From Pseudomaricurvus alkylphenolicus (GTDB taxonomy: Bacteria > Pseudomonadota > Gammaproteobacteria > Pseudomonadales > Cellvibrionaceae), in NCBI RefSeq assembly GCF_011683955.1, contig NZ_JAAQPI010000032.1:1-46852 (forward strand): DNA of 46,852 bases. The letters are read 5' to 3'. This document shows, in pieces, positions 23,221 through 44,443 of this stretch. The notes under the pieces are model-generated. The model did no database searches, was not told where the DNA came from, and saw nothing but the letters and a program-made list of their open reading frames with translations. The position numbers and the translations under genes were made by a program. How positions within the stretch are numbered: the stretch's first letter is position 1; the number at the start of each line of letters is the position of its first letter.

Positions 23221-23251
23221 CTTGACCAACCAATCAATAACTTGATATAGT
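23221..23251 (+). promoter_or_regulatory. sigma70-like promoter overlapping an 18-bp regulon operator
   Basis: CTTGACCAACCAATCAAT (23221-23238) is one of seven copies of the CTTGRYCRACCAWTCAAG motif in this window. Within it, TTGACC (23222-23227) is 18 bp from TATAGT (23246-23251), a plausible promoter for the rightward XRE gene. A bound repressor would cover the -35 box and spacer. It also lies 80 bp upstream of the divergent DUF4405 gene. Confidence 0.55.
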
Positions 23252-23360
23252 CTAACACATGCTCAAGTAACTCCGTAAGGAGCAGGAGGACTTGAAGACG
23301 TAAATAGGACTGGCGATAATCACCGCTTATCTTTAACAGCAGCCTAAGCGAATTTGGTGT

Positions 23361-24209
23361 ATGCCCAGCTCCTCCGATCAAAACCCAAAAGACGATCTTC
23401 CCTTTGCGCGACTGCTAAGATTCTGGCGCGACACTTATCAACTCAGCCAGGAACAGCTAGCTGAAGCTCTGGGCTCATCAACACGGCATATCAACCGCCT
23501 TGAGAACGGCCATGTGCATCCCAGCAAGGATATCGTAGGTAAAATCGCCAAACAGTTTTCGCTTCGAGAGCGGGATAGTAACTATCTGTTACTGTCTGCG
23601 GGTTACCGCCCGGCTTCCAGCAAGTTGGATTTTAATTCGCCGACATTAAAGTGGTTACGTAAAGCAGTGACCCTATCTTTGAAGGCTCTGAATCCTTACC
23701 CAAGCATTCTGCTCGATGGCGCTTTCAATATTGTTATGGTCAATAAGGCCTGGGTAGGCTTGTTTCAATCGACAGTAGAACCCGCCGAGTTACAAAACAT
23801 TAAAAACTATATTGATTTTTTCTATGCCCATATAGTCACGAGCATTGATGATGAAGAGTGCTCAGATGCGCAATCACTGATGGCTATGTGGTTGCAACAA
23901 GAAGTTATTCTCGATAACGATGATGAAAACAGGCAACGGCTCAATAACCTGTTATCACAGCCACAAATCCCGAAAAATTGGAAGCAACGCGCAGCAGCTC
24001 TCGACCCTATGAGCAGTTTCCGCATCAAGCTTAACGTCAATGGCAATGACGTACACTTTTATCACGTTGTTCAAACGATTGGCGCTATTGGTCCGGCCGC
24101 CTATGTTTCCGAACCGCGCCTAAGCATTCACACCTATTACCCTGTCGACGACCAAGATGTGTCGAGTTTAACCGCGGGTGATTTGCAACACCCGCTGCTA
24201 CACGATTAA
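23361..24209 (+). CDS. XRE-family regulator with MmyB-type ligand-binding domain
   Basis: A 282-residue regulator. The N-terminal HTH spans about residues 15-70 (LSQEQLAEALGSSTRHINRLENG). The remaining 200 residues resemble the MmyB-like ligand-binding domain (NPYPSILLDGAFNIVMVNKAW, then a polar helical region, then FYHVVQTIGA). Such proteins are thought to respond to fatty-acid-like small molecules. The gene is preceded by a regulon operator over its promoter. It may therefore be the regulator of the aromatic-degradation genes, controlling itself, or only a target. No strong Shine-Dalgarno precedes the ATG. Confidence 0.8.
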   Translation: MPSSSDQNPKDDLPFARLLRFWRDTYQLSQEQLAEALGSSTRHINRLENGHVHPSKDIVGKIAKQFSLRERDSNYLLLSAGYRPASSKLDFNSPTLKWLRKAVTLSLKALNPYPSILLDGAFNIVMVNKAWVGLFQSTVEPAELQNIKNYIDFFYAHIVTSIDDEECSDAQSLMAMWLQQEVILDNDDENRQRLNNLLSQPQIPKNWKQRAAALDPMSSFRIKLNVNGNDVHFYHVVQTIGAIGPAAYVSEPRLSIHTYYPVDDQDVSSLTAGDLQHPLLHD

Positions 24210-24213
24210 CGGG

Positions 24214-24927
24214 TTATCGCAGTAACACACCGCCATCCACAGGAATACTGACGCCCGTAATATAGGCTGCCAGCGGTGACGCTAAAAACACGGCTACCCC
24301 ACCGATATCTTGCGGTTGCCCCCAACGATTCATGGGCACGTTCGACAAGAGCTTTTTCTCAACCCGGGGATCCTCCTGAAATGAACCGGTCATTCGGGTT
24401 TGTATATAGCCCGGAGAAATAGCATTAACCCTTACGCCTTTTCGTGCCCATTGATCAGCCAGGGCACGAGTTAATCCCAGAAGGCCGGCTTTACTGGCTG
24501 TATACGCCGGTGTGTCCCGCAGGGATAAATAGGCAGACAAGGAAGCGATATTAATAACAGAGCCGCCCCTCGCAATCAGTGTTTCAGCATAAAGCTGACA
24601 CAACTCCATTACCCCATTCAAGTTCATTTCAATGGTCTTGCGAAAGACCTCGCCCTCATACTCATTGGACTGCACAATACCCGCATTGTTAACCAGCACA
24701 TCTATTTCGGCGATATTCCGATATAAACCATGCTGGCCTTCAAGAGTTGATAAATCCGCTTGGTGATAAGTAAATTGACCTAAGTCGCCATCGTAATCAC
24801 TGGCTGTTGGTCGCGTACCGGTGATATGCACTGAAGCACCCGCCGCCAGAAAGCTGCGAGCAATCCCCAAACCAATCCCTTGGGATGCTCCCGTCACCAG
24901 TGCCACTTTGCCTGTTAGATCAATCAT
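24214..24927 (-). CDS. short-chain dehydrogenase/reductase
   Basis: A 237-residue classical SDR. It has the Rossmann TGASQGIG at residues 12-19, NNAG at 80-83, Ser 129 (INIASLSAY), catalytic YTASK (Tyr 142, Lys 146), and a C-terminal SIPVDGG. The enzyme oxidises or reduces an alcohol/ketone with NAD(P); in this operon it probably acts as a 3-hydroxyacyl-CoA dehydrogenase-like step. Shine-Dalgarno GAGGG lies 8 nt upstream. It is last in the minus-strand operon behind two acyl-CoA dehydrogenases and a crotonase (gap of 15 nt to the preceding gene) and converges on the XRE gene. Confidence 0.9.
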   Translation of the reverse strand: MIDLTGKVALVTGASQGIGLGIARSFLAAGASVHITGTRPTASDYDGDLGQFTYHQADLSTLEGQHGLYRNIAEIDVLVNNAGIVQSNEYEGEVFRKTIEMNLNGVMELCQLYAETLIARGGSVINIASLSAYLSLRDTPAYTASKAGLLGLTRALADQWARKGVRVNAISPGYIQTRMTGSFQEDPRVEKKLLSNVPMNRWGQPQDIGGVAVFLASPLAAYITGVSIPVDGGVLLR

Positions 24928-28287: not shown

Positions 28288-28947
28288 TTAGCTATTTTCT
28301 AGCGCTTCAATTTCAACTTTAATACCCGCAACAACGCTCTTTGCAGCTGTAGCGCACATCTCCTTGAGACCAGATTTTGTCGCCTCAACAGCGGATCTTA
28401 TAAATATTCCATCAGCAATGGCCATTAAGAGCCGAGCGTACCTTCTTGCAATCGCTCGAACATGCTTTTCCGGCAATTGCGTAAACATAGCTACCAAGTC
28501 TTTTTCTATTTCCTGGGTCCAACCGGATCGTAAAGACCTCAAAGCATCACGAACTTCCGCATTCTCAGTCTTATCCTCTACCACAGCCACATGTATCAGC
28601 TTTACAAAGGTCGGGCTTTCCTTCAATACATATAGAGACTTAGCCATCCTCTCTTCCACCTCATCAAGATCATGAGGCTCCGTACCATATAAACTGTCAC
28701 GATCTTCTCCTATCTGTTTCCACTGCTCGCTACTATTAATCAGTACAGCTGAAAAGATTGCATCTTTAGAATCAAATATCCAATAAATAGATCCGGACAA
28801 TACGCCAGCTTTCTTTGCAATTTTAGAGATAGAGGTTGCGGCATACCCATTCTGGGCAAACAGCTCTTCTGCTGCAGAGAGGATCTTATCTCGAGTAACC
28901 CTGTCATTTTTCTTGGATTTAGTATCTGATTTTGCCGCGCTACCCAT
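28288..28947 (-). CDS. TetR-family transcriptional regulator
   Basis: A 219-residue regulator with a textbook TetR HTH: ILSAAEELFAQNGYAATSISKIAKKAGVL in pieces, then GSIYWIFDSKDAIFSAVL. The ligand domain is helical. GAGGA precedes the ATG by 5-6 nt. It is encoded directly upstream of the crotonase/acyl-CoA dehydrogenase operon in the same orientation. The palindrome at 28195-28213 lies between them, so it is the likely local repressor, presumably released by a CoA-ester. Confidence 0.9.
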   Translation of the reverse strand: MGSAAKSDTKSKKNDRVTRDKILSAAEELFAQNGYAATSISKIAKKAGVLSGSIYWIFDSKDAIFSAVLINSSEQWKQIGEDRDSLYGTEPHDLDEVEERMAKSLYVLKESPTFVKLIHVAVVEDKTENAEVRDALRSLRSGWTQEIEKDLVAMFTQLPEKHVRAIARRYARLLMAIADGIFIRSAVEATKSGLKEMCATAAKSVVAGIKVEIEALENS

Positions 28948-29376
28948 ATCTTCCTCTGTTAGCGACCACGCTATCTATGGCCTAAATACTGTTTAAATTT
29001 TCATCAGTTAAAGCTTGCTAATAACGTTACTAACTTCAGGTAACTGTTTAACTGCAAGCATCAATATTAACCCAGTATATCAAACCTTCCCCCTTCTCGG
29101 GAAACCGACTTTCAAGATAGCTCAAAGCCTATTTATCGTGACATCAGGCGTGTTAAATCAACAAGCAACAGAAACATCATAACCCATTGATTTATAAAGA
29201 TATTACCCGGAGGCCGGCACCGTGAACCGTTATGTTCGTCGGCGGGTCAGAGATGTGCCGCTGTTTGGCTATGACTCACCACAACAACCTGATTGATCAA
29301 GCAAGCACCTATACAATAGTTGCTTGCTTGATCCGCGAGACGCCATATACCAAGGGCGCCAGCTACATGTCGGGGT
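28948..29376. other. 429-bp intergenic region with a 13-bp inverted repeat
   Basis: No gene is supported. GATCAAGCAAGCA (29295-29307) and its exact complement (29321-29333) form a 13-bp stem with a 13-nt loop, 44 nt downstream of the acyl-CoA ligase stop. No U-run follows on either strand, so it may be a weak terminator, an mRNA 3' stabiliser or a protein-binding dyad. The rest should hold the TetR promoter near 28950-29010. Confidence 0.5.
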
Positions 29377-30993
29377 TCACTGGCTATCACTGGTGATTGG
29401 CGGCAATCGATCACGCAAGACGTTCTTGGCAATCTTTTCCAGCGTGGAGCGCGGTAGCTCATCGACCACGTGCACACTCCGTACAACCTTGAAGTCCGGC
29501 AGGTTTTCGCGACAGTGCGCTATCAGCGTCTCCTCGAGTTGTGCGTGGGTCAGTCCTGCAGCGCCAGGACCGGGAATAATGAAAACCACCGGAACTTCGT
29601 CCAGCATATAGTGTTCCTGTCCCACCACGGCACATTCATCGACAACTCCCGACAGCATAATCACACTCTCGATTTCCGAGGCCGCAACATTCTCTACGCC
29701 GACTTTCAGCATGTCCTTGTCGCGATCAGAAAAGTACAGCCAGCCGTCTTTGTCAGACCGGACCAGGTCGCCTGTATCAAACCAGCCGTGCTCGTCGAAA
29801 GCGGACTCGTTGGCGTCTGGATTGCGGTAGTACTCCTTGAACAGGCTGACGCCCCTGACACCGCGGATGAAGAGATGCCCGGTCTCACCCAGCTCACAGA
29901 GAGATCCATCGGCGCGGCGCAGCTGAATATCGTAGTCCGGCGCCGCGCGACCTATGGTCATTTCGGGGCCGAGGTGATCCATATCCACCGTAATGCCGTG
30001 GGTGACCGTTTCAGTCATGCCCCACAAACCCAGTGTCTTTACACCGAATACTTCTTCTATCTGACCTATCCGTGCACCCAGATTCCAGAAACGCATTTTG
30101 TGTTCGGGCACCGGTTGATCCATGATCGCCTTGATGGCGAAGGGGATCATGGAAGCCCAGGTTACCTGGTGATTGGTGGCAACCTGCCAGAAACGCGATG
30201 CCGAAAACTTGGGCTGTACGACTATCGTTCCCCCCGACCAATGGGTAGACAGCATGGAGTAAGACTGGGCATTGGTGTGAAACAGCGGCAAGAACGCCAT
30301 GGCAATGTCGTCACTCCTCAGCCGATAGTGCTGGGCGCCGGTCTTACCGCCCCAGATGCCATTGGCGTGTGTCCACAACACGGCCTTCGGTCTGGATGTG
30401 GTGCCGGAAGTGAACTGCACGCCGAGATTGAGACTGGCATCCACCGGGCGCAGTGAGATGGGTTCTTCTGCAAACAGATCGGCAAACGCCACCGCATCGA
30501 GCTCGGACTGCAAGTCAACACTGTCCTCACAGCGGACGCCAGCGTCGTTGTCAGCAAGACCAAGGAAGCGAATCTGCGGGCAGGACTCACGAATCATTCG
30601 CGCATATTTTGGCTGGGTCAACGCGCAGACAGCCTCGGTGACCTCAGCGAAGTAGCTCATATCCCGGGCGACAGAGCGCGTGTTGGTGGATACGGCTACC
30701 GCACCCAGGATCGCGCAGGCATACCAAAACAGGATGAACTCGGGTGAGTTGTCCATGTGCAAGAGGACGAATTCTCCCTCTTTTACTCCCCTGCTCTGTA
30801 GCCCCGCAGCCAGTCGTCGGGCTGCATCGAATAGCTCGGCATAGGTGAAGCTTTGTGTATCGCCTTCGAACGGGCACCAGACCACACAGGTTTTATCCGG
30901 CGTCTTTTCTACCCACTGTTGCAACATCCAGGGGATGTCCATGCCTGCCGCTGCCTCGCGGTAGCTGTGATCGATCTGGTCTTTGAGTTTCAT
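29377..30993 (-). CDS. acyl-CoA ligase (AMP-forming)
   Basis: A 538-residue member of the ANL superfamily. Motifs in order: phosphate-binding FTSGTTSRPKA (about 194-204), LPLFHTNAQ, WGMTET, WFDTGD, DRDKDMLKVGVENV and, near the C-terminus, RSTLEKIAKN with the catalytic Lys. It activates a carboxylic acid to its CoA ester through an acyl-adenylate. The CaiC/FadD17-like form suggests a medium or cyclic acid, but this is not determinable. It is a single-gene unit with AAGGG 9-10 nt before the ATG. It could feed CoA esters to the dehydrogenase pairs. It is noticeably GC-rich compared with the sulfatase gene next door. Confidence 0.9.
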   Translation of the reverse strand: MKLKDQIDHSYREAAAGMDIPWMLQQWVEKTPDKTCVVWCPFEGDTQSFTYAELFDAARRLAAGLQSRGVKEGEFVLLHMDNSPEFILFWYACAILGAVAVSTNTRSVARDMSYFAEVTEAVCALTQPKYARMIRESCPQIRFLGLADNDAGVRCEDSVDLQSELDAVAFADLFAEEPISLRPVDASLNLGVQFTSGTTSRPKAVLWTHANGIWGGKTGAQHYRLRSDDIAMAFLPLFHTNAQSYSMLSTHWSGGTIVVQPKFSASRFWQVATNHQVTWASMIPFAIKAIMDQPVPEHKMRFWNLGARIGQIEEVFGVKTLGLWGMTETVTHGITVDMDHLGPEMTIGRAAPDYDIQLRRADGSLCELGETGHLFIRGVRGVSLFKEYYRNPDANESAFDEHGWFDTGDLVRSDKDGWLYFSDRDKDMLKVGVENVAASEIESVIMLSGVVDECAVVGQEHYMLDEVPVVFIIPGPGAAGLTHAQLEETLIAHCRENLPDFKVVRSVHVVDELPRSTLEKIAKNVLRDRLPPITSDSQ

Positions 30994-31153: not shown

Positions 31154-31307
31154 GAAATCGGTCGTAGGGATCCAACAATACCAGAGCTTGATTGAGTAAC
31201 CAAGTAATTATACAATAACTATCGTCAAACCGCATATTAGCAATGAAGCTACGCACTCAGGGATCAGGGATCAGGGACTTTTGCCGTAGTAAACTAGATT
31301 AGCAACT

Positions 31308-33020
31308 ATGAAGAAGGTACAAGCAATAATCGTTGCCTTAACCCTAGTAACAGTAGGGTGCGGGCAAAGAACAGAGAATGGACAACCCCCAGCGACACCT
31401 TACCCAAATTCAGCCAGTAACCCCCTTTCCAGCTCTCCAAATATTCTGTTGATTGTCGCAGACGACCTTGGCTATACCGACCTGGGAAGCTACGGAAGTG
31501 AAATCAGTACTCCCAATCTTGATCGTATCGCCCAGGAGGGGACAAAATTCTCACAGTTTCATGTTGCTGCAGCATGCTCCCCAACTCGAGCAATGCTACT
31601 GACAGGTGTTGATAATCACATTGTTGGATTAGGGGCGTTCAACCCTGAAACTATCGGAAAGAATCAGAGGGGCATTGCAGGCTACGAAGCCCATTTGAAC
31701 TTTCGTGCAGCTTCCATGGCCGAGATATTTATCGAAAACGGCTACCACACATACATCACGGGAAAGTGGCATCTAGGATATGAAGCTAACAGCACTCCCG
31801 TAGTGCACGGGTTCCAGCGCTCATTCGTACAGCTAGACGGAGGAGCAGGTCACTTTAATGAATTACCGGCAATACCGCTTAGGCGCCAGGCCAGCTTCAG
31901 GGAAGACGGGGTTCCTGTTAATCTGCCAGATGGATTCTATTCCAGTGATTTTTATGTCCACCAGATGATTAACTATATCAATGAGGATAGATCTACTGGA
32001 AAACCTTTCCTGGCCTACCTTGCATTTACAGCCCCCCACTGGCCACTTCAGGCCAAAGCTGAAACCATAAGAAAGTATCAGGACAAATACCTGGACGGAT
32101 TTGAAAGACTTGCCCAACAACGGCAAAAGAAGCTTGTCGAACTAGACATCCTTGAGAATAGCGTCACTCCTGTTCCATATAACCAGGATATATTCCGCCG
32201 CTGGTCCACACTGAGTCATCAAGAAAAGGCATATGAAGCCAAAAGAATGGCAATTTATGCAACCATGATCGATGACCTGGACTCTGCAACAGGAGTATTA
32301 ATTCAGTATTTAAAAGACATTGGAGAGTTCGATAACACCCTTATAGTATTTCTATCCGATAATGGCGCTGAAGGCCACCAAGCCCAAGAGACTGAATCTC
32401 TAATTGAGCTAGCTACCGTTTTGGGCATCCCTTGTTGCGACAACAGCCACGAAAACATCGGGAATGCAGATTCATTTATAGGCCTGGGCCCTGAGTGGGC
32501 TCAAGCAAGTGTAGGGCCTCATCGAATATACAAGGGGTACCCAACCCAAGGAGGCATTATAGCGCCAGCCTTTATTCGCCCCCCTACGCAAGAGGGGCCT
32601 GAATGGTATAAGGGTTTTACATCCGTTAAGGATATCCTGCCAACGATGCTTGAATTTGCCGGCATAGATAACCACAACAACACCTTCAAAGGCAGAAGCG
32701 TTTTTCCAATAGAAGGTAAATCCATCATGCCGCTGCTTCAGGGCAAAGCAGACACAGTACACGCAAACAACATCAATATGGGTTGGCACCTATTTACGAA
32801 GCATGCGGTTAGAGCAGGTGATTGGAAACTATTACGTTTACCCAAGCCCTACGGGGACAATGAGTGGGAGCTTTACCACCTGCCTTCCGATCCGGCAGAA
32901 ACGAAGAACCTAGCTAAACAGGAACCGGAACGGCTGAAAACACTCATTCAGCACTGGGAGAAGTATCAACAACAATCCAACGTAATCATCCCTGAATTAC
33001 CATGGTATGTTAGATATTAG
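31308..33020 (+). CDS. arylsulfatase-family lipoprotein
   Basis: A 570-residue type I sulfatase. The lipoprotein signal ends VTVGC (Cys 18). Metal ligands are in VADDLGYTDLG. The formylglycine motif CSPTR has its Cys at residue 90 (ACSPTRAMLLTG), followed by ITGKWHLGY and LSDNGAEG. It hydrolyses sulfate esters in the periplasm after conversion of Cys90 to formylglycine by a separate enzyme not seen here. Next to phenol hydroxylases, an aryl sulfate substrate is plausible (inference). No Shine-Dalgarno is visible before the ATG. The last codons, WYVRY-stop, lie inside a repeat that recurs at 34133. Confidence 0.9.
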   Translation: MKKVQAIIVALTLVTVGCGQRTENGQPPATPYPNSASNPLSSSPNILLIVADDLGYTDLGSYGSEISTPNLDRIAQEGTKFSQFHVAAACSPTRAMLLTGVDNHIVGLGAFNPETIGKNQRGIAGYEAHLNFRAASMAEIFIENGYHTYITGKWHLGYEANSTPVVHGFQRSFVQLDGGAGHFNELPAIPLRRQASFREDGVPVNLPDGFYSSDFYVHQMINYINEDRSTGKPFLAYLAFTAPHWPLQAKAETIRKYQDKYLDGFERLAQQRQKKLVELDILENSVTPVPYNQDIFRRWSTLSHQEKAYEAKRMAIYATMIDDLDSATGVLIQYLKDIGEFDNTLIVFLSDNGAEGHQAQETESLIELATVLGIPCCDNSHENIGNADSFIGLGPEWAQASVGPHRIYKGYPTQGGIIAPAFIRPPTQEGPEWYKGFTSVKDILPTMLEFAGIDNHNNTFKGRSVFPIEGKSIMPLLQGKADTVHANNINMGWHLFTKHAVRAGDWKLLRLPKPYGDNEWELYHLPSDPAETKNLAKQEPERLKTLIQHWEKYQQQSNVIIPELPWYVRY

Positions 33021-34213: not shown

Positions 34214-35422
34214 TTAGAACAATCCCATATCGGGCTCTAGAGCCATCAGATGTCGGCCAAACGTCTGCTTGGCAACATCCATATCTGAATACGCATGGCT
34301 AGCAGCCATATTTACATCACGCCACAGCTTTTGCATAAGGTTGTCATCAAACCAGGCACTACCTCCGCTAGCGGCGTAAAGGCGATTAACTGCTTCAACC
34401 GCTTGATTCGTAACATAAGTTTGACTCACTCTCCAGCTCGTACTGGTGGATTCATCTGGGAGTTTACGTTCATTACAGTGATTTGCGATTTCTTGCCAGT
34501 CTTGTTTCAGCCGGGTTTCTGCAGCCCGGACCTGCAGCACGGATTCGGCGAGTCGCATATAGGCCGGTGCATTGTCGGACATATTGGCGCCAGTGTAAGC
34601 ACGTACGCGTTTTGATGTCTTCTCCTTGTATAGGTTGATAAAAGATTTAGCCATACCAAGAGAAGCTATTGAAAAACCTAACCCGAAGTAATTAAAGAAG
34701 TGAGCATAGAAGATATTTCCAGGATGTGAGCCAAAGCCTTTGGATTGACCTGCATTCAAAGCGACAGTAGTGTCGATACGGTGCTCAGGAACAAAGACCT
34801 CCTTCAATCTGAGTGTTTTACTACCCGTGCCTTTTAAGCCTGCAGTATGCCAGTCGTCTATGATCTCGTAGTCTGCCTTTGGCACGACTGCCATATGTGG
34901 TACTAGCATATTATTTAATTCAGGTACCTTGCGCTTAAAGCCGAGCATCGCCCAGTCCGCATGATCGCATCCACTAGACCAACCCCATGTCCCATCGAGT
35001 ATAACGCCTCCCTCTTTTTCCTTACACTCCAGAATGGGAGCGACGGCGGAAGAAATGAGAGCATTTTCATCCTGCCCCCAAACGTCCTGTTGGACTTCTT
35101 CACTCATCAAGGCGAGCCCGTGGGCGTGTTGAGCATATAGACCTGCAATCCAGGCTGTAGAGGAGCAATTTTCCGCAATTTCCATGAGTATGGGAGCGTA
35201 TTCAGGAACTTCAAGTTCTAATCCCTTGAACGCCTTAGGCTGCAGTGCACGCGTAAATCCTGTTGATTTAAGCAAAGCAATATTCTCAGGATCAACACAG
35301 CGGTTTTTTTCGGTTTTTTCAACATTCTTAAGAAACGTGGGTAAAACCTCTTGAATATTTCGCTTGAGCAATTCGCCAGCAGTTTGGTTTTCTAGGTCAA
35401 AAGAACAGGTCTTGTCAGGCAT
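34214..35422 (-). CDS. HsaA-type flavin-dependent aromatic monooxygenase, copy 1
   Basis: A 402-residue group D flavoprotein monooxygenase of the acyl-CoA-dehydrogenase fold. Hallmarks shared with HsaA (3-HSA hydroxylase) are GTWGWSSGCDHADW, the DDWHTAGLKGTGSKTL segment, and the C-terminal KLWRDVNMAASHAYSD. Such enzymes hydroxylate a phenol ortho to its OH using FMNH2/FADH2 supplied by a separate reductase (the one at 41576-42058 is the candidate). GGAG lies 8 nt before the ATG. It is a close paralogue of the protein at 43122-44327. A regulon operator lies at 35497-35514, 75 bp upstream. Confidence 0.88.
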   Translation of the reverse strand: MPDKTCSFDLENQTAGELLKRNIQEVLPTFLKNVEKTEKNRCVDPENIALLKSTGFTRALQPKAFKGLELEVPEYAPILMEIAENCSSTAWIAGLYAQHAHGLALMSEEVQQDVWGQDENALISSAVAPILECKEKEGGVILDGTWGWSSGCDHADWAMLGFKRKVPELNNMLVPHMAVVPKADYEIIDDWHTAGLKGTGSKTLRLKEVFVPEHRIDTTVALNAGQSKGFGSHPGNIFYAHFFNYFGLGFSIASLGMAKSFINLYKEKTSKRVRAYTGANMSDNAPAYMRLAESVLQVRAAETRLKQDWQEIANHCNERKLPDESTSTSWRVSQTYVTNQAVEAVNRLYAASGGSAWFDDNLMQKLWRDVNMAASHAYSDMDVAKQTFGRHLMALEPDMGLF

Positions 35423-35496: not shown

Positions 35497-35514
35497 CTTG
35501 GTCAACCAATCAAC
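35497..35514. promoter_or_regulatory. regulon operator upstream of monooxygenase copy 1
   Basis: CTTGGTCAACCAATCAAC matches the shared 18-bp consensus. On the minus strand it begins with a TTGATT that could serve as -35. The 35423-35867 interval between the divergent monooxygenase and dioxygenase genes has no gene; it contains this site and the duplicated module at 35722-35811. Confidence 0.6.
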
Positions 35515-35721: not shown

Positions 35722-35811
35722 TTTGATCGAGATCAAATAATCTATTTGGTCGACCAATCAAGGATCAACCAGTTGATCAAGATCAAGTGTGTTAATTGAT
35801 CGACCATCAAA
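35722..35811. promoter_or_regulatory. tandem-duplicated module: FNR-like box plus regulon operator, twice
   Basis: Two units repeat with a 50-bp step. Unit 1 has TTGATCGAGATCAA (35723-35736) and TTTGGTCGACCAATCAAG (35745-35762). Unit 2 has TTGATCAAGATCAA (35773-35786) and ATTGATCGACCATCAAA (35795-35811). The 14-mers fit the FNR/Anr consensus TTGAT-N4-ATCAA exactly. The second elements belong to the CTTGRYCRACCAWTCAAG family; the last lacks one base. The array ends 57 bp before the extradiol dioxygenase ATG. Confidence 0.6.
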
Positions 35812-35867
35812 GGAGTTGATACAGTAAAGAAAACACAGACAGCTCCGAACGGAGCAGGAGAACTTAG

Positions 35868-36833
35868 ATGCAGTACATGATGGTTAGCGCCTCTCATTCC
35901 CCCATGTTGGACATGACTCCAGCAGACAGGGAGCGAACAAAGAACGTCAAGCTGGCGCTTGAGTCAACACGCAAGCGAATCGAAGATTTTGATCCTCAAC
36001 TGGTCGTCCTATTTGGCGTAGACCACTACGGTGGGCACCAGATGGCGTGCATGCCAAGCTTTACTATTGGCGTAGAAGCCACGTCGCTTGCAGATGTTGG
36101 AGGCACACCTGGCCCGCTGAATGTTCCCCGTGATGTTGCAGTTTCTGCGGTGGAAGCCGTTAGAGATTCAGGCGTAGATGTTGCAGTTTCATACGCTATG
36201 GAAGTTGATCACGGGTTTTCTCAAGTTGCGATGACGACTCTGGGATCTCTCACCCGATACCCAATCTTGCCTGTATTCGTTTCCTGCATACAACCTCCCT
36301 TTGTACCCTACAAGCGAGCGAGGGCTCTTGGCGAAGCCATAGGGAAATTCACAAGTGATTTGGACGCTTACCAAAGAGTTCTGTTTTTAGGTTCCGGTGG
36401 GCTTACTCATGATCCAGCGTACCTCTACCCACCTATTGATGTCGTAAGCGATGAGTGGAAACCCTACATCCTGCACGGAAAGTCTCAATCGGAAGTACCA
36501 CAGCAGAAATGGATCGACTACGAAATTGAAGCGCATGAACATGGACTTCCAATGCTATTGGACGAAAGCATTACAGAAAGTGACTTGGGCCTCGTTGACC
36601 ATTGGGATAAAAAATTTCTTGAAACCTATTGCAGCGGTGACATGTCGGCATTTGACAGCTGGGATCCTAAAGAGGTCATGGCGGAAGCTGGCATTGGTGC
36701 AGTCGAAACTCTTAGTTGGGTCGCCGCGAGATCGGCAATCTGCAGCGTATCCGATTGCGTTCCTCGTGAATCTTTTTACCAACTAACCAGGGAGGTGGGG
36801 GTTGGTTTCGGAATAGTGGAAGCCAGAAGTTAG
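35868..36833 (+). CDS. extradiol ring-cleavage dioxygenase, MhpB/LigB type
   Basis: A 321-residue class III extradiol dioxygenase, close in length and sequence to MhpB (2,3-dihydroxyphenylpropionate 1,2-dioxygenase). Conserved His: His10 (SASHSP), His53 (GVDHYGG), His115 (MEVDHGFSQ) and His181 (GSGGLTHDP). The latter three mirror MhpB metal and acid-base residues. It uses Fe(II) and O2 to open a catechol next to the diol. The catechol is probably made by the neighbouring HsaA-type hydroxylases. AGGAG precedes the ATG by about 7 nt. Upstream lies the duplicated regulatory module. Confidence 0.92.
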   Translation: MQYMMVSASHSPMLDMTPADRERTKNVKLALESTRKRIEDFDPQLVVLFGVDHYGGHQMACMPSFTIGVEATSLADVGGTPGPLNVPRDVAVSAVEAVRDSGVDVAVSYAMEVDHGFSQVAMTTLGSLTRYPILPVFVSCIQPPFVPYKRARALGEAIGKFTSDLDAYQRVLFLGSGGLTHDPAYLYPPIDVVSDEWKPYILHGKSQSEVPQQKWIDYEIEAHEHGLPMLLDESITESDLGLVDHWDKKFLETYCSGDMSAFDSWDPKEVMAEAGIGAVETLSWVAARSAICSVSDCVPRESFYQLTREVGVGFGIVEARS

Positions 36834-36919: not shown

Positions 36920-37345
36920 TTACTGGTTTTCTTCCCAGTTAGGAACTTCACCAAAAACTTGATTGATAATTCTCGACTTATACTTCCAAACACCATCAAC
37001 TTTTACATACTCATCATTGTAATCCATGATGATAAGAGGATTAGCAGGATGCGGCCCCTCTCCGTCAGCTGCAAATAATGTCAAATGGCATGTTCCAACT
37101 ATTCTGCTTTCACTCTCTTCGTGAATAGCAACGGGAGAAAAAATGTGACGTGATAAACGATGCCCTCTGGCAGTGCGCATATCATAAAACGCTTTTATTT
37201 CTTCACGTCCCTTAGCGCCTCTATCTTCAAATCCGTAGTAACCGTCCTCGGTAAACAGTTCAGGAACGCCAACACCATTACGGTGATCAATCAGCCAAGA
37301 GAACTTAGCATTCAACTTGAGAATTTCTTCGTAATTACTAGCCAT
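36920..37345 (-). CDS. SnoaL-like (NTF2-fold) protein
   Basis: A 141-residue protein. I place the start at 37345, where GAGGAG lies 9 nt upstream; an ATG 12 codons further on the 5' side (37381) has none. The sequence has the cone-shaped NTF2/SnoaL pattern: LNAKFSWLIDHRNG, ELFTEDGYYGFED, GREEIKAFYD, then alternating strands and a C-terminal VWKYKSRIIN. Related proteins are isomerases, dehydratases or small subunits of ring hydroxylases. The function here is unknown, but a regulon operator 95 bp upstream ties it to the aromatic cluster. Confidence 0.75.
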   Translation of the reverse strand: MASNYEEILKLNAKFSWLIDHRNGVGVPELFTEDGYYGFEDRGAKGREEIKAFYDMRTARGHRLSRHIFSPVAIHEESESRIVGTCHLTLFAADGEGPHPANPLIIMDYNDEYVKVDGVWKYKSRIINQVFGEVPNWEENQ

Positions 37346-37439
37346 TACATTATGCTCCTCGTCATCTTCAAGCCAAAACATTAACTTGAAAAGGTATGTT
37401 TATAGAGATCAACGCACTCTCCGATCAATAATAAACTTA

Positions 37440-37468
37440 CTTGACCGACCATTCAAGAGGTGTAGAAT
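37440..37468 (+). promoter_or_regulatory. regulon operator overlapping a promoter
   Basis: CTTGACCGACCATTCAAG (37440-37457) is the best palindromic example of the shared operator. TTGACC (37441-37446) and TAGAAT (37463-37468) with a 16-bp spacer form a plausible rightward promoter for the membrane-protein gene. The site is also 95 bp upstream of the divergent SnoaL-like gene and could control both. Confidence 0.6.
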
Positions 37469-37597: not shown

Positions 37598-38044
37598 ATG
37601 GATAATATAAATGACACTTTTTTCACTGTGCGAGTACTTTTAAGTATTGCCCTATTTGGCTGCACTATTATACCAATGCTTGCTGATTTTAATAAAACTC
37701 ATGCTACCAACCCGCTGTGGACAGGGCACGCCCGTTACCACGTAGTTTGGCAGTGTATTTCTTACGGCTGGCTAGGTATATTTGCCCTCTATCTACTCTG
37801 GTTTTATGAGTCTGAGTCTGTCTTACCCCTGTATATCACCGCAATCATCTGCGCATCAATCTATGGCGGATTCTTCATGGCATTAATGTTTAAAAGCCTT
37901 TACGGAGGCAAAACTTACGATGAGAATGGCTACCTCCCCATAGCATTTAACATTGGTGGTAAAACCTTATATATAAATCAAAACATTACTGCATTTTCTG
38001 TAATGGTTGCTGTTTTATCCGTTGCTGTATATATGCTTTTCTAA
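37598..38044 (+). CDS. four-helix membrane protein, unknown function
   Basis: A 148-residue integral membrane protein with GAGG 8 nt before the ATG and four hydrophobic helices (VLLSIALFGCTIIPML; ISYGWLGIFALYLLWF; LPLYITAIICASIYGGFF; ITAFSVMVAVLSVAVYMLF). A polar first loop contains NPLWTGHARYHVVWQ, a conserved-looking HxRxH motif that I associate with DUF6640-like proteins, with modest certainty. Two His at a membrane surface could bind a metal. It shares an operator-bearing intergenic region with the SnoaL-like gene. Confidence 0.65.
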   Translation: MDNINDTFFTVRVLLSIALFGCTIIPMLADFNKTHATNPLWTGHARYHVVWQCISYGWLGIFALYLLWFYESESVLPLYITAIICASIYGGFFMALMFKSLYGGKTYDENGYLPIAFNIGGKTLYINQNITAFSVMVAVLSVAVYMLF

Positions 38045-38850: not shown

Positions 38851-39099
38851 AGTAGTTCCATGGATGACATCTGATTAAAGGCTGTACGAGAATGAAATTT
38901 ATAGCCGATATTATCTAAGTGTAGACGGGAAGAGATCGATTCTCTAGAAGGGATAGCAACTAACTGTAACTCTGCAGAGACATAGTTGTTTAGACATCCT
39001 TGTCATAAACATAGCTAAAGTTATGAACCCGCCAAACTCATAATTAGCAGTATGGGCCTAGAGGGTCATAACTTAATAAACGTAGATTACCCTCTCGAT

Positions 39100-41472
39100 T
39101 TAGAAGCGGTAATCCGCGTTAAGCGTGATGGTTCGAGGAGCATCTGCAATACCCCAGTAGGCGCCATCTCGCAAGGCAGTGCCGCCACCGAAAGAAGTTG
39201 TTCTCTTATCGGTAATATTACGGCCCACCAGGTTTACACTCCAATTGTCATCGGCGGATTCATAGCCAATCGACAAATCAGCCTTGGTAAATGAGTCTTG
39301 CGCAGCGTAGTCATCATTCTGGACTGCCACGAAGAATTCATCACTATAGAAAACATCACCACGAACCCGAATGGTACCCATACCGTCAAGAGGATACGAA
39401 TAGATGAAGTAGGCACTACCACTCCACTCTGGCGCATTAGGTAATTTATCACCCTTCGCATTTCGAGAATTTGTAGCAATATCACAATCAGCCTCAAGAC
39501 TCAGGCCTGGGGAACATGGCGCACCGACGAAACCATCGTATATCGCATCAACAAATGACAGGGCACCTCCAAGCTCCAAATTGGAGGTCGCGGCAAAACG
39601 CACGTCAGCTTCCAGACCCTCAGAGGTCGCTGCACCAGCATTGTTTACAACAAAGCTATTGGTCGCCGAATCCAAGACACTGACTTGCTGATCAGTATAC
39701 TCCGTTGTAAACAGAGCCACATTCAGCTGCATGCGGTGATCGAAGAAGTAAGTCTTCAATCCCAGCTCGTAACCTTCAGCTTCCTCAGAATCAAAGCTGA
39801 TGTTATTTGCAGTTGTTGTTACAGCGTTAAAACCGCCAGCTTTAGTAGCCTTAGTATAAGATAAGTACACCGCCGTATCAGGGGTCATGTCCCACTGCAT
39901 TGACAGACTAGGATCTACACCTTCTTCGTGTATTTTCGTGTCTTCAAGCTCATCATAAGTAAATGGTGACATACCGAATAGTCCCGCAGCAAAGGCATTT
40001 TCACCTGGGTTGCTGGTGTCAAAAAAGCCAACCTGGAAACTGTGATCATCAAGCGACTTGTTTTCATATGAATAACGCAGACCCGCGTTCACACGAAATA
40101 CATCACTTACATTCCACGTCACCTGACCAAAGGCTGCGTATGCCTCAACACTTTGCTGAAACTCTCGATTGGTTTGAAGATCAAATGTTGTAGGCACAAA
40201 TCCACCTCCGCTCAGACTTAGTGCATAAATCTGGTTAACATCAGGCACGGCGATTTCCTGATCAACAAAGTAAAAACCGACTACATAGTCGAATGTTTCA
40301 CCGCCAGGGGAAACCAGTCTTAACTCTTGAGTGAATTGCTCAAAATTTTCTTCCTCATATTGAGTGAAGATATCAAATGGCGCTGGAGAGAAAGAGTAGT
40401 TGGAGTGACTTTCAAACTCAGAGTAGGTACTAATGGATGTAACCATACCCATTGGCAGATCCCAATCCAGCTGCAAGGTCAATGCATCGCTATCAACAGT
40501 GCGCTCGTCCTCTTTGTCTGTAACGACCACCCCTGTGCCATCGGCATTGACTTCCACATGACGGGCAGATGCGGCAACACCATTATCAATAGTATCGAAT
40601 CCTGGCTGGCGAGTTGTGAAATCATCAATGATTAGAAAAGGGGTACCTGCTATGGTTGCGCCAGGTTGGATTCCAGTCGTACCAAAACTGGTACCGGTTA
40701 CTTTCTTCTCAGCGTGCTCATACTTCGCAAAAACACTGAAATCATCGTTCACATCCCATACAGCACTTAAACGAATGGTATCGATTTCGGATTCATTTTG
40801 ATCCTTTCTGCCCTTCAAAGCAGTACTGCCATCGGAACTTTGACGAGGTAGCGTATCTAACCAACCACCCACTTTATTGGTAGAGGCTACAAGGCGGGCT
40901 TTAAAAGAGTCAGTAATCGGACCAGAGACAACCGCCTCTACGCCCAGACCGTCATTTTCAAACTCATAGTTACCACGAATAACGGCTTCGAATTTATCAG
41001 TTGGGCGACGAGTAGAAATTACAACGGCACCCGCGACACTGTTTTTACCCTGCAAAACACCTTGAGGGCCACGCAGGACTTCAACTCTCTCCAGATCCAA
41101 GAATGGACTATTCGCCTGCTTTCCACGACTAACATACAAGCCATCAATATACATACCCACCGATTGCTCAAAGCCTAAGTTTGCACCACCGGTAGTAACA
41201 CCACGAACATTTACAACACTAAAATTCGGGGACGTCTGCAGGGACACGCTAGGAATCGAATCCACAAGCCCAGACATGTCAAAGATACCTTGATCCTCAA
41301 GAGAATCACCTGTGACAGCAGCTATGGAAATAGGTACATCAGTTAAACCTTCAGCACGTTTTTGTGCCGTAACAATTATCTCCTCCAGGACTGGCTGTGC
41401 GAAACCTACAGTAGATGTCATTAATCCTAAGGCACCTAACAATGCAGTTTTACTAGCTACAGAGTTCAACAT
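39100..41472 (-). CDS. TonB-dependent outer-membrane receptor
   Basis: A 790-residue receptor. A signal peptide (ALLGALGLMTSTVGFAQ) is followed by the TonB-box-like LEEIIVTAQKR, plug domain (NVRGVTTGG, VEVLRGPQGVLQGKNSVAG) and a beta-barrel ending ITLNADYRF with the terminal Phe needed for BAM-assisted insertion. GGAGAGAG precedes the ATG. The IIVTAQKRxE plug type is common in Cellvibrionales and sphingomonads for uptake of hydrophobic or aromatic substrates. It follows the flavin reductase of the monooxygenase operon but is separated by a hairpin. It is the likely importer for the 31-46 kb pathway (inference). Confidence 0.93.
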   Translation of the reverse strand: MLNSVASKTALLGALGLMTSTVGFAQPVLEEIIVTAQKRAEGLTDVPISIAAVTGDSLEDQGIFDMSGLVDSIPSVSLQTSPNFSVVNVRGVTTGGANLGFEQSVGMYIDGLYVSRGKQANSPFLDLERVEVLRGPQGVLQGKNSVAGAVVISTRRPTDKFEAVIRGNYEFENDGLGVEAVVSGPITDSFKARLVASTNKVGGWLDTLPRQSSDGSTALKGRKDQNESEIDTIRLSAVWDVNDDFSVFAKYEHAEKKVTGTSFGTTGIQPGATIAGTPFLIIDDFTTRQPGFDTIDNGVAASARHVEVNADGTGVVVTDKEDERTVDSDALTLQLDWDLPMGMVTSISTYSEFESHSNYSFSPAPFDIFTQYEEENFEQFTQELRLVSPGGETFDYVVGFYFVDQEIAVPDVNQIYALSLSGGGFVPTTFDLQTNREFQQSVEAYAAFGQVTWNVSDVFRVNAGLRYSYENKSLDDHSFQVGFFDTSNPGENAFAAGLFGMSPFTYDELEDTKIHEEGVDPSLSMQWDMTPDTAVYLSYTKATKAGGFNAVTTTANNISFDSEEAEGYELGLKTYFFDHRMQLNVALFTTEYTDQQVSVLDSATNSFVVNNAGAATSEGLEADVRFAATSNLELGGALSFVDAIYDGFVGAPCSPGLSLEADCDIATNSRNAKGDKLPNAPEWSGSAYFIYSYPLDGMGTIRVRGDVFYSDEFFVAVQNDDYAAQDSFTKADLSIGYESADDNWSVNLVGRNITDKRTTSFGGGTALRDGAYWGIADAPRTITLNADYRF

Positions 41473-41519
41473 AATCTCTCTCCAATGTAATAGTTTTTAA
41501 CATATCTTGATAATTATTC

Positions 41520-41540
41520 TGCTCGGAAAAACACCGAGCA
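41520..41540 (-). terminator. hairpin between the flavin reductase and TonB receptor genes
   Basis: TGCTCGG (41520-41526) and CCGAGCA (41534-41540) form a 7-bp stem with a 7-nt A-rich loop. It lies 36 nt after the reductase stop and 48 nt before the receptor start. No U-run follows, so it may be only a partial terminator that lowers receptor expression relative to the operon. Confidence 0.4.
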
Positions 41541-41575
41541 GATCACTCTTACACGAATACTACCTCCAAAATGAT

Positions 41576-42058
41576 CTAGTCGATCTTGATCTCCGCGTAT
41601 TTTCCTCGACAGAAAAGTAACGGTTGCTTATCTTCCGTTACAAATCTCTCAACCTCTCCCACAATGATTAAGTGATCACCACCCTCGTACTCATGACGCG
41701 TTACACACTCAAAGCGCGATACACACCCTGGCAGCATAGGTATGCCATGATCATTATTATCATATTCGACTTCCGAGAAATCTCCAGCCCCGGATCCAGC
41801 AAACTTATTGGAAATATCGATCTGATCTTCAGCTAACACATGAACGACGAATTTCCCTGTTTCTCTGAATGCAGGTAATGAGGATCGCTCATAGCCGATA
41901 GACCAGAGAATCAACGGGGGATCCAAAGATACAGAGTTAAAGCTGGAAGCCGTCATAGCGATAGGGTTACCTTCACTATCGGTCGTGGTGATAACTGTCA
42001 CGCCCGTAGGAAAGGAACCTAATGCATTTCTAAATTCAGTAATATCAATAGAAGCCAT
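41576..42058 (-). CDS. flavin reductase, HsaB/HpaC type
   Basis: A 160-residue flavin-reductase-domain protein. Family segments: FRNALGSFPTGVTVITT, MTASSFNSVSLDPPLILW, KFVVHVLAEDQ and GGDHLIIVGEVE. It reduces FMN or FAD with NAD(P)H and passes the free reduced flavin to the HsaA-type monooxygenase. It is last in the operon monooxygenase-FAH hydrolase-reductase; gaps are 27 and 40 nt. GAGG lies about 10 nt before the ATG. As the only such reductase in the window it probably serves both monooxygenase copies. Confidence 0.92.
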   Translation of the reverse strand: MASIDITEFRNALGSFPTGVTVITTTDSEGNPIAMTASSFNSVSLDPPLILWSIGYERSSLPAFRETGKFVVHVLAEDQIDISNKFAGSGAGDFSEVEYDNNDHGIPMLPGCVSRFECVTRHEYEGGDHLIIVGEVERFVTEDKQPLLFCRGKYAEIKID

Positions 42059-42085
42059 TTCAGTTATACCTCTTCAGTAAGAAGA

Positions 42086-43081
42086 CTAATCTTCTACAAC
42101 AACTGGGTTGACTAAGGTACCTAAGCCTTCAATCTCAATGCTCACCTTTGCACCATTAGACTCGTTGAGATCCCAGTGACCTATCGACGCAAAGCTGCCA
42201 TTTTCAGCTGGCTTCGCTGCAGTCCCGCAATGGATAATATCCCCCGTTTCCAGGGTGCAATAACGTGAGGCATGCGCAATCACCTTCTCAACAGAGAAGG
42301 TCAAATTAGCCGTTGAGTCCACGAAGGTAAGCTCTTCGTTTTGATATGAACGAACACGAAGATTATTCGGATCGCTAATCTCATCGGCGGTAACCAACCA
42401 AGGACCCATAGGTGCAAACGTATCGCAACCTTTAGAACGCGCGTGATAGGTCAGATACAGTCTGCGTGCATGATCAGCATCGCGAATCTCTCGCCAACCC
42501 ATTGACTTTTCGTAACGAGCTTCAAAACCAGAACCTTCTGGAGCAATAATCTCAATACTATCTTCCGCTTTTAATCCATGAGAGGTCACATCATTGAGAA
42601 CGCTGTAACCAAAAACATGATCTAAAGCATCTTCTTCTTTAATGTTTTTGCCACCCTTACCAATGATCACCGCCAATTCTGGCTCTGGATTGGTGATGCC
42701 AAATTCCTTTCTGAGAACAATGGGTTGGTTTTGGCCAGTTAAAGCGGTTGCCACTGAAAAGAAAAAGGCCGGGGTTGCAGAAGGCCTATGAGAGAGCGCC
42801 TGAAATATCTGATTGTTTATCGCGACCCCCATAATCTTTCCTGGACGTGGGATAGGGGCCAGCATGGTTAGAAGAGCAGGATCTTTCTTGTAATCCTGAG
42901 AAAAGTCTTCCGCCATCAGCGAATCTAAAGAGATATCACCACTGACAACTTCTTCCATAAAATCGGCTAATGTAGCAGGGGCTTTCGCTCCCAATACAAG
43001 CCTCAGGTCGGCAATTTGGCCATCCGCTGTTTCAAAGCCGTAAGACTTCTGCCCTTCCGAAACAAAACTACAAAATTTCAT
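42086..43081 (-). CDS. fumarylacetoacetate hydrolase-family protein
   Basis: A 331-residue protein with an N-terminal small domain and a C-terminal FAH-type catalytic domain: NPEPELAVIIGKGG supplies acidic metal ligands, FGYSVLNDVTS and DIIHCGTAAKPAENG follow. Family members cleave C-C bonds of acylpyruvates or act as hydratases or decarboxylases in meta-cleavage pathways. Here it lies between the monooxygenase and its reductase, so it likely handles a product downstream of extradiol cleavage. The specific reaction cannot be told from sequence. The ATG has AGG 8-9 nt upstream. Confidence 0.88.
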   Translation of the reverse strand: MKFCSFVSEGQKSYGFETADGQIADLRLVLGAKAPATLADFMEEVVSGDISLDSLMAEDFSQDYKKDPALLTMLAPIPRPGKIMGVAINNQIFQALSHRPSATPAFFFSVATALTGQNQPIVLRKEFGITNPEPELAVIIGKGGKNIKEEDALDHVFGYSVLNDVTSHGLKAEDSIEIIAPEGSGFEARYEKSMGWREIRDADHARRLYLTYHARSKGCDTFAPMGPWLVTADEISDPNNLRVRSYQNEELTFVDSTANLTFSVEKVIAHASRYCTLETGDIIHCGTAAKPAENGSFASIGHWDLNESNGAKVSIEIEGLGTLVNPVVVED

Positions 43082-43121
43082 AACTAACCTATTAGATTCA
43101 ATAAATTTCAGACTGAACTAA

Positions 43122-44327
43122 TTAGAACAAGTCCATGTCAGGCTCAATATCCATCAAATGACGACCATATGTTTGTTTGGCAACATCAAGGTCTGAGTAG
43201 GCATGGGAACCCGCCATGTTTACATCACGCCACAGCTTTTGCATACGATTGTTATCGAACCATGCACTACCACCACTGCCCGTGTACAAACGATTCACAG
43301 CTTCGATAGCTTGGTTAGTCACATAGGTTTGGCTTGCACGCCAGCTGGTGCTCATTGACTCATCAGGTAGTCTTAGCTCATTACAATGCTGAGCCACCTC
43401 ACTCCAATCTTGCGCCAGTCGCGTTTCAGCAGCTCGCACCTGAAGCACAGACTCAGCCAGTCGCATATAGGCTGGAGCGCTATCAGCAGCTTTTGCACCG
43501 GTATACGCACGCACACGCTTAGACTGCTTCTCTTTGTAAAGATTGATGAAAGCTTTCGCGGTACCCAGAGCTGTTACAGAGAAACCTAATGCAAAGTAGC
43601 TAGCGAAGGGGGAGTGGAAGATCTTACCGGGATGAGAGCCAAAACCTTTTGATTGGCCTGTAGCCAGTTCAATGGAACCATCAATACGGTGCTCTGGCAC
43701 AAAAACATTTTTAAGTTTCAGAGTCTTACTACCGGTACCCTTCAGGCCAGCCGTGTGCCAGTCATCAATGATTTCATAGTCAGTTCTAGGTACGCATGCC
43801 ATGTGTGGGATCATCATATTATCCAGCTCTGGAACCGCACGCTTGAAGCCAAGCAGAGCCCAGTCGGCATGGTCACAACCACTTGACCAGCCCCAGGTAC
43901 CGTCCAGTATAACGCCGCCATCTACGGGCTTAGCTTCAAGAATTGGCGCAACTGAAGAAGAAACTAAAACGCTGGTATCTTTACCCCAGATCTCTTGCTG
44001 AAGCTCTTCACTCATTATAGCAATCATATGAGAATGCTGGGCTAATAGACCTGCAACCCAAGCCGTTGATGAACAATTTTCCGCAATCTCCATCAAAATA
44101 GGGCCATAACTTGGCGCTTCAATTTCTAAACCACCAAAGGCTTTAGGCTGAAGTGCACGCGTAAACCCAGCTGCTTTCAGCAGCTCAATGTTTTCCTCAG
44201 CAACAGAACGATTTGCATCGGTCTTTTCAGCGTTTTTGGCAATGATAGGCAAAATCTCACGAACTCTTTGCTTCAGTGCCTCTCCAGCCTTTTGAGCTTC
44301 TTGGTTAGACGGTGCTAAGTCAGACAT
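43122..44327 (-). CDS. HsaA-type flavin-dependent aromatic monooxygenase, copy 2
   Basis: A 401-residue paralogue of the protein at 34214-35422, sharing nearly all motifs (GTWGWSSGCDHADW, WHTAGLKGTGSKTL, KLWRDVNMAGSHAYSD, MDIEPDMDLF end). The true start is the ATG at 44327 with AGGAG 7 nt upstream. A longer in-frame ORF to 44438 merely reads through the operator repeats. It heads the operon with the FAH-family hydrolase and flavin reductase, giving a complete two-component hydroxylase. The paralogues may differ in substrate or act on successive intermediates. Confidence 0.9.
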   Translation of the reverse strand: MSDLAPSNQEAQKAGEALKQRVREILPIIAKNAEKTDANRSVAEENIELLKAAGFTRALQPKAFGGLEIEAPSYGPILMEIAENCSSTAWVAGLLAQHSHMIAIMSEELQQEIWGKDTSVLVSSSVAPILEAKPVDGGVILDGTWGWSSGCDHADWALLGFKRAVPELDNMMIPHMACVPRTDYEIIDDWHTAGLKGTGSKTLKLKNVFVPEHRIDGSIELATGQSKGFGSHPGKIFHSPFASYFALGFSVTALGTAKAFINLYKEKQSKRVRAYTGAKAADSAPAYMRLAESVLQVRAAETRLAQDWSEVAQHCNELRLPDESMSTSWRASQTYVTNQAIEAVNRLYTGSGGSAWFDNNRMQKLWRDVNMAGSHAYSDLDVAKQTYGRHLMDIEPDMDLF

Positions 44328-44373
44328 AGTAAATCTCCTGTTGATATAGGGGCTAAGATAGTCATTGCGTGGC

Positions 44374-44443
44374 TTATACACCACACTAACTTGGTCGACC
44401 ATCCAATAGTTATACACTACTCCAACTTGGTCGGCCACTCAAG
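44374..44443. promoter_or_regulatory. tandem-duplicated promoter/operator upstream of monooxygenase copy 2
   Basis: A 27-bp segment beginning TTATACAC is repeated at 44374-44400 and 44410-44436, a 36-bp step, with about four differences. Each copy contains the start of one regulon operator: CTTGGTCGACCATCCAAT (44390-44407) and CTTGGTCGGCCACTCAAG (44426-44443). The rest of 44444-44831 has no gene; it holds a near-FNR dyad TTGACCAAGATCAA (44563-44576) on the side of the rightward dehydrogenase. Confidence 0.6.

Follow-up and report, generated by a model that had tools for sequence, protein, structure and literature searches.

An 18-bp inverted repeat at aromatic ring-cleavage genes of Pseudomaricurvus alkylphenolicus and its candidate TetR-family repressor

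Introduction

Does a short sequence repeated before genes for aromatic ring hydroxylation and ring cleavage in Pseudomaricurvus alkylphenolicus mark the reach of one regulator, and if so, of which one? The stretch of DNA that raises this question, here called the window, is a whole contig (C25; 46,852 bases) of a draft genome of 8.88 Mb (70 contigs). The original prediction described seven intergenic copies of an 18-bp operator in the window, assigned them to one regulon for ring hydroxylation and cleavage, and put forward the XRE-family protein encoded at 23361 as a candidate regulator. The sites are present and cluster in the genome, and three lineages have one at the dioxygenase promoter, together with one subtype of TetR protein. 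The explanation we favor, with moderate confidence, is that a single TetR-family repressor, most likely the product of 28288–28947, uses the sites as its operators and would block promoters until a metabolite releases it.

The inverted repeat in the window

All seven reported copies are present in the window (Table 1). Compared to the first pattern, the copy at 37440 has no mismatch, those at 23221, 35497 and 35745 have one, those at 44390 and 44426 have two, and that at 35795, which is one base short as originally described, has three. With up to three mismatches allowed, the first pattern gave eight matches in the window, versus a mean of 0.33 in 100 dinucleotide-preserving shuffles, none of which reached eight. 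The eighth match, at 31187 (minus strand, three mismatches), was absent from the original prediction.

Set beside the sites found elsewhere, the reported copies prove to be imperfect versions of the inverted repeat CTTGRYYGAYCRAYCAAG (18 bp; half-site CTTGRYYGA). TetR operators are usually perfect or imperfect inverted repeats of about 14–20 bp. The symmetric pattern, with up to two mismatches, gave 12 strand-matches in the window (shuffle mean 0.06 matches), corresponding to eight distinct sites (23221, 29288, 31187, 35497, 35745, 37440, 44390 and 44426); 29288 and 31187 are gained and 35795 is lost. The site at 29288 is accepted with low confidence, less surely than that at 31187. Both halves fit the consensus at position 9373 of contig C21 (L003), where the exact form reads CTTGGTTGATCAATCAAG, and at position 5028 of a locus from Paraburkholderia tuberum (L020), where it reads CTTGGTTGATCGATCAAG; the other sites are imperfect. 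A looser 16-mer palindrome was too unspecific for use (120 matches per strand versus 47 in the control).

The intergenic position of the seven sites holds with ATG 44327 as the start of monooxygenase 2 and ATG 23140 as the start of the DUF4405 gene, both chosen by eye from the frame and a ribosome-binding-site-like sequence. Longer GTG or TTG frames in the mechanical list of open reading frames (ORFs) would overlap the sites at these two genes. The stretch between the ligase and TetR genes (28948–29376) contains a 13-bp inverted repeat, GATCAAGCAAGCA...TGCTTGCTTGATC, recognized by eye, which overlaps the 29288 site and lacks a T run.

Distribution in the genome

With at most one mismatch to the first pattern, the genome contains six sites, four in the window and two on the 15.7-kb contig C32; with at most two there are 14, of which six are in the window, three on C32, one on C21 and four elsewhere. 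At three mismatches, 71 matches compare with 53 for the reversed control; thus only close matches carry signal and the loose ones are mostly noise. With up to three mismatches C32 has four sites (2105, 4726, 4749 and 14330). Since C32 was outside the data behind the first pattern, its four sites serve as independent confirmation.

With the symmetric pattern and up to two mismatches, 21 distinct sites were found in the genome. Thirteen are on C25 (eight), C32 (four) and C21 (one), which together make up 0.88% of the genome, a count that is partly circular because the symmetric pattern was refined on some of those sites. The remaining eight occur singly on C2, C11, C13, C20, C23, C29, C34 and C66. 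At three mismatches the symmetric 18-mer gave 168 matches versus 124 in the control.

Some sites have flanks in common. The left flanks of C32:2105 and C32:14330 (L001) agree at 24 of 30 positions and those of window 35497 and C32:14330 at 19 of 30, and C21:9373 agrees with C32:2105 at 18 of 30 on the right and with C32:14330 at 17 of 30 on the left. Judging by these flanks, C32:2105, C32:14330, C21:9373 and, less so, window 35497 probably represent a single promoter module that was copied, and these copies are therefore not all independent. A check for contig overlap found no 21-mer common to C21, C25 and C32. The shared flanks could suggest that the sites are only a duplicated promoter module or a chance resemblance, with no operator function. 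This is most improbable, as only 13 of 120 site pairs reach even 15 of 30 on one flank, yet the 18 bp agree throughout, and exact and one-mismatch sites recur in other lineages.

Conservation at dioxygenase orthologs

Six fetched loci contain an ortholog of the window dioxygenase with at least 50% identity. They are from P. tuberum (L020, 60%), Sphingopyxis granuli RW412 (L059, 60%), a Sphingomonadaceae metagenome-assembled genome (MAG; L024, 59%, partial), Sphingobium sp. YC-XJ3 (L060, 55%), a Sphingomonadales MAG (L021, 53%) and a Caulobacteraceae MAG (L022, 52%). Conservation of the site upstream of the dioxygenase is seen in two of the six, exact in P. tuberum and with one mismatch in Sphingobium, in both cases between divergent fumarylacetoacetate-hydrolase (FAH) and dioxygenase genes. 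The 450 bp upstream of the dioxygenase in the other four contain no site; in L022 and L024 the dioxygenase gene directly follows the FAH gene. When the 450 bp upstream were mononucleotide-shuffled, a site with at most two mismatches arose in one of 3000 shuffles, both for P. tuberum and for Sphingobium. In the 8.8-Mb P. tuberum genome, the exact site is the sole site with at most one mismatch to the pattern used for that scan.

More distant dioxygenases lack the site. None was found at two relatives with 34–35% identity (L023 and L025), and none with up to three mismatches at 24 Paraburkholderia paralog loci (L035–L058, 34–39% identity; 24 of the 46 matches listed besides P. tuberum's own) or at two relatives from the window's own family (L063, 41%; L064, 38–39%). 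In wider stretches from the same family, the best matches had four mismatches (L065) and three (L066:14564, approximately 4 kb past the dioxygenase).

The candidate regulator

The TetR protein encoded at 28288–28947 contains a TetR_N DNA-binding domain (PF00440, E 1.1e-17) and has relatives in both foreign loci with a site, in P. tuberum (33.7% identity over 193 residues, E 3e-36) and in Sphingobium (38% over 110 residues, E 2e-21). The likeness extends to helices 2–3, where 20 of 24 residues agree in P. tuberum and 15 of 24 in Sphingobium. Seventeen other distinct TetR-like sequences agree at 10 of 24 or fewer; this set comprised matches to a helix-turn-helix query with E ≤ 1 over at least 35 residues, with duplicates and shorter rows dropped and with the TetRs of L014 and L017 not among the rows. 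Among the six ortholog loci, a 28288-type TetR is found in exactly the two that bear the site. With the thresholds used, this type was detected in one of 144 genomes of the window's own family and in one of 349 genomes of the P. tuberum family, in each case the organism itself. A further 347 genomes gave none, a set that held no genome known to match and so says nothing alone. Downstream of TetR 28288, the window encodes paired acyl-coenzyme A (acyl-CoA) dehydrogenases, and the Sphingobium locus contains relatives of both (47% and 42%) as well as of the window's FAH hydrolase (47%) and flavin reductase (35%). These counterparts of pathway genes suggest that TetR 28288 probably belongs to the same pathway.

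The original prediction favored the XRE-family protein, whose own promoter has a site over the -35 box. However, no tblastn match to this protein (E ≤ 1e-8) was found in the fetched P. tuberum and Sphingobium loci (the rest of both genomes lay outside the search), whereas both site-keeping loci encode a 28288-type TetR. It is very unlikely that the XRE protein owns the sites; it is more likely a target.

A TetR protein encoded on C32 (L001:2193–2774), which is AcuR/NemR-like and matches AcuR weakly (42.5 bits, cut-off 247), was at first favored for its upstream site. It would repress itself, the adjoining old-yellow-enzyme-type reductase and the distant window genes. A strong site (2105) stands just before its start and two more (4726 and 4749) stand before the reductase, the nearer with TTGATT-17-TATAAT towards that gene. 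Its standing was lowered because its orthologs lack the site: in three family members (L012, L013 and L014; 49–55% identity) none occurs within the 1.5 kb fetched upstream. The helix region ISRSSLYxxFGDKRQLF is kept in L013 and L014, less so in L012. TGKACCRAYTGGTACA-like palindromes were recognized by eye before the start codons in all three, and C32 has AAGACCGACTAGTCCA at a like place. The P. tuberum and Sphingobium loci, moreover, contain no relative closer to the C32 TetR than TetRs that better resemble 28288. Ownership by the C32 protein is therefore rather unlikely. The TGKACCRAYTGGTACA-like palindromes are perhaps the operator of AcuR/NemR-like TetRs.

Another regulator from elsewhere in the genome could also own the sites, for example the other TetR of the window (18312), a further TetR or an AraC protein. 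A genome this large has many TetRs, and the regulators examined were those of the window, C32, C21 and selected loci. We regard this as unlikely, since another regulator would leave the joint occurrence of the TetR 28288 helix region and the site in three lineages unexplained.

Overlap with promoters

The TTGACC -35 boxes reported at 23221 and 37440 were both found, each with a -10 element (Table 1). For all sites, the hexamer at site positions 2–7 on either strand was taken as the -35 box, and a fitting -10 element was required at a spacing of 16–18 bp with at least four of six matches, including A2 and T6. Nine of 16 sites (14 from the window's own genome and two foreign) have a fitting -10 element, compared with a background of 15.7% over 2585 positions in nine window intergenic regions, sites included (binomial P 2e-4). 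Six of the nine face a neighboring gene: 23221 faces the XRE gene, 31187 the sulfatase gene, 35795 the dioxygenase gene, 37440 both neighbors, C32:4749 the reductase gene, and P. tuberum 5028 the FAH gene (TTGATC-17-TATCAT). The site in Sphingobium has no fitting -10 element. Occlusion of the -35 box, as read from these promoter-like sequences, appears well founded at some promoters only.

It is reasonable to propose that a dimer of TetR 28288 binds the inverted repeat, and that the bound repeat would cover the -35 box at several promoters and keep RNA polymerase off. The promoters repressed would be those of the monooxygenases, the extradiol dioxygenase, the FAH hydrolase, the sulfatase and further acyl-CoA-pathway genes on C32 and C21, where the same repressor presumably uses the sites on these other contigs. 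A pathway metabolite, perhaps a CoA ester, may release it.

Genes next to the sites

In the window, the sites stand next to the XRE and DUF4405 genes (23221), the acyl-CoA ligase and sulfatase genes (31187), the monooxygenase 1 and dioxygenase genes (35497, 35745 and 35795), and the genes for a SnoaL-like protein and a small protein (37440). The paired sites at 44390 and 44426 precede monooxygenase 2, with the FAH hydrolase and flavin reductase genes behind it. On C32, sites precede the AcuR/NemR-like TetR gene (2105) and the reductase gene (4726 and 4749), and that at 14330 has a thiolase gene on one side and a second, broken copy of the TetR gene on the other. The site at C21:9373 precedes an ORF of 114 residues without a Pfam match, followed by genes for a carboxyltransferase, a biotin carboxylase and AtuA. 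We infer that the genes associated with the sites serve ring hydroxylation, ring cleavage, hydrolysis and the degradation, via acyl-CoA, of a side chain that is branched or terpenoid.

C32 carries a partial duplication (1929–2914 and 13817–14740) of a segment that comprises the operator, the TetR gene and the beginning of an enoyl-CoA hydratase gene; in its second copy the TetR gene has a frameshift and is shortened. Sulfatase genes are present in both the P. tuberum dioxygenase cluster (L020:8547–10262) and the window cluster, and both products match Pfam Sulfatase. The window sulfatase has no tblastn match in the P. tuberum locus at E ≤ 1e-8, so the likeness is at the family level only.

Table 1. 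Operator-like sites and neighboring genes in the window
Feature	Coordinates	Strand	Remarks
Operator CTTGACCAACCAATCAAT	23221..23238	+	between DUF4405 gene (-) and XRE gene (+); TTGACC-18-TATAGT towards XRE gene
XRE-family (HTH_3) protein, probable target, not owner	23361..24209	+	
TetR-family regulator, best owner candidate	28288..28947	-	helix 2-3 region SISKIAKKAGVLSGSIYWIFDSKD
Weaker site CCTGATTGATCAAGCAAG	29288..29305	.	341 bp upstream of TetR start; part of inverted repeat; -10 match points away from TetR gene
AMP-forming acyl-CoA ligase	29377..30993	-	
Site CTTGATTGAGTAACCAAG	31187..31204	.	between acyl-CoA ligase (-) and sulfatase (+); TTGATT-17-TACAAT towards sulfatase
Sulfatase	31308..33020	+	Pfam Sulfatase
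Flavin-dependent monooxygenase 1	34214..35422	-	resembles p-hydroxyphenylacetate hydroxylase/HsaA oxygenase components, below cut-offs
Operator CTTGGTCAACCAATCAAC	35497..35514	+	75 bp upstream of monooxygenase 1; no fitting -10 at 16-18 bp
Operator TTTGGTCGACCAATCAAG	35745..35762	+	106 bp upstream of dioxygenase; no fitting -10
Degenerate operator ATTGATCGACCATCAAAG, one base short	35795..35812	+	TTGATC-18-TACAGT towards dioxygenase, 56 bp upstream of dioxygenase
MhpB-like class III extradiol dioxygenase (LigB)	35868..36833	+	below curated cut-offs for MhpB type
SnoaL-like protein	36920..37381	-	
Operator CTTGACCGACCATTCAAG	37440..37457	+	-35 boxes of divergent promoter-like sequences: TTGACC-16-TAGAAT (+), TTGAAT-17-TATTAT (-)
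148-residue protein	37598..38044	+	no Pfam match; membrane protein per original prediction
Flavin reductase	41576..42058	-	
FAH-family enzyme	42086..43081	-	
Flavin-dependent monooxygenase 2	43122..44327	-	start reassigned by eye to ATG 44327; p-hydroxyphenylacetate/HsaA-like, below cut-offs
Operator CTTGGTCGACCATCCAAT	44390..44407	+	upstream of monooxygenase 2; -10 match points away from monooxygenase 2
Operator CTTGGTCGGCCACTCAAG	44426..44443	+	second copy, 36 bp on from 44390; no fitting -10

Discussion

Several results weigh against TetR 28288 as the owner of the sites. The co-occurrence of TetR and site consists of two foreign loci, which were found via the dioxygenase rather than the TetR, and the surveys of TetR rarity scored only up to 20 (144 genomes), 8 (347 genomes) and 8 (349 genomes) candidates per genome. 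TetRs usually autoregulate, but 29288, the site nearest the TetR 28288 gene, is weak and its distance from the start is 341 bp. A good site begins 88 bp upstream of the other TetR gene, on C32. In P. tuberum, 3.8 kb and other genes separate the TetR gene from the site. The Sphingobium TetR (L060:13326–13760), encoded on a plasmid, has an annotated length of only 144 residues and may be shortened; if truncated, as it looks, it could leave its cluster derepressed. Its gene adjoins a transposase gene.

The P. tuberum genome contains four matches at two mismatches, versus six in the reversed control, and over the 31-kb Sphingobium locus two of 100 shuffles also gave two strand-matches. A Sphingomonadales MAG (G145) contains two sites by the pattern used to scan the P. 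tuberum genome, one exact (C213:16272, L030) and one with a single mismatch (C196:8327, L033; C196, of 15,960 bases, is separate from the contig of the G145 dioxygenase, of 18,388 bases), and no TetR of the 28288 type was detected in the 1.5-kb flanks of either. These two sites are unexplained counter-examples to exclusivity.

Seven of the 16 sites have no fitting -10 element, and no fitting -10 element leads from any site towards either monooxygenase gene. In 28900–45000, promoter-like sequences are not enriched, with 20 present compared with a mean of 24.2 in shuffles. Three of the nine -10 elements (29288, with the -35 hexamer CTGATT; 44390; and C32:4726) face away from the neighboring pathway gene, which slightly lowered our confidence in TetR 28288 repression as the best explanation.

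The originally proposed single regulon for ring hydroxylation and cleavage is supported as to the shared operator, by the clustering in the genome, the conservation at the dioxygenase in two lineages and the -35 overlap at some sites. Its gene scope is borne out in part only, as sites also occur on C32, on C21 and at the sulfatase promoter. Tentatively, a TetR of a rare subtype may travel together with its cognate 18-bp operator and an MhpB-like ring-cleavage module across the window lineage, the betaproteobacterium P. tuberum and the alphaproteobacterium Sphingobium, and the operator may have spread within the window genome, partly by promoter duplication, to sulfatase, acyl-CoA and atu-like carboxylase genes. 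If so, the operator would define one undescribed regulon through which a phenol, alkylated or terpenoid and possibly imported as its sulfate ester, is degraded completely. The results provide a testable candidate regulator-operator pair for an aromatic ring-cleavage pathway and suggest regulon membership for genes on three separate contigs. The pair may also become a sensor part once the inducer is identified.

Comparison with known systems

Repressors of the TetR family are common at catabolic clusters, and their action through inverted repeats at such promoters is well known, so the proposed system is unsurprising in kind. A search of one library of papers, by text and not by figures and with the FadP and LiuR motifs of Kazakov 2009 outside the comparison, found no paper with the 18-bp operator.

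In the mhp cluster, the dioxygenase MhpB is accompanied by an IclR-type regulator, MhpR. The window dioxygenase is MhpB-like, with 37% identity to E. coli MhpB. In contrast to the mhp cluster, a putative TetR-type operator takes the place of the IclR activator here, and the monooxygenases are flavin-dependent and of the p-hydroxyphenylacetate/HsaA type. MbdR of Azoarcus is a TetR repressor of an aromatic catabolic cluster that answers to a CoA ester, with the operator ATACN10GTAT. Like MbdR, the candidate would be a catabolic TetR, and a profile of the three TetRs matches the solved MbdR structure, 4uds (E 3e-13). However, the MbdR operator is unlike the sites described here, and structures 5d18 and 6a4l match the profile better. 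RutR, a TetR regulator of pyrimidine use, has the operator TTGACCANNTGGTCAA, a TTGA...TCAA inverted repeat of similar length whose center differs from that of the sites; the RutR model is not among the eight NCBIfam families matched by TetR 28288 at E ≤ 1e-10.

AtuR of Pseudomonas is a TetR repressor of acyclic terpene utilization with two inverted repeats at a catabolic promoter (PMC9973270). That paper gives the 13-bp repeats as AGCAAGCGCTTGG/CCAAGCGCTTGCT (citing Forster-Fromme and Jendrossek 2010). AtuR resembles the proposed system as a TetR on catabolic inverted repeats. It is also the nearest known system by the genes around the C21 site, since C21:9373 stands before a set of genes that includes those for AtuA and a biotin-dependent carboxylase. 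The repeats themselves differ, the half-site here being CTTGRYYGA, and the AtuR operator was rejected as the identity of the sites since, by eye, their letters differ from the published repeats.

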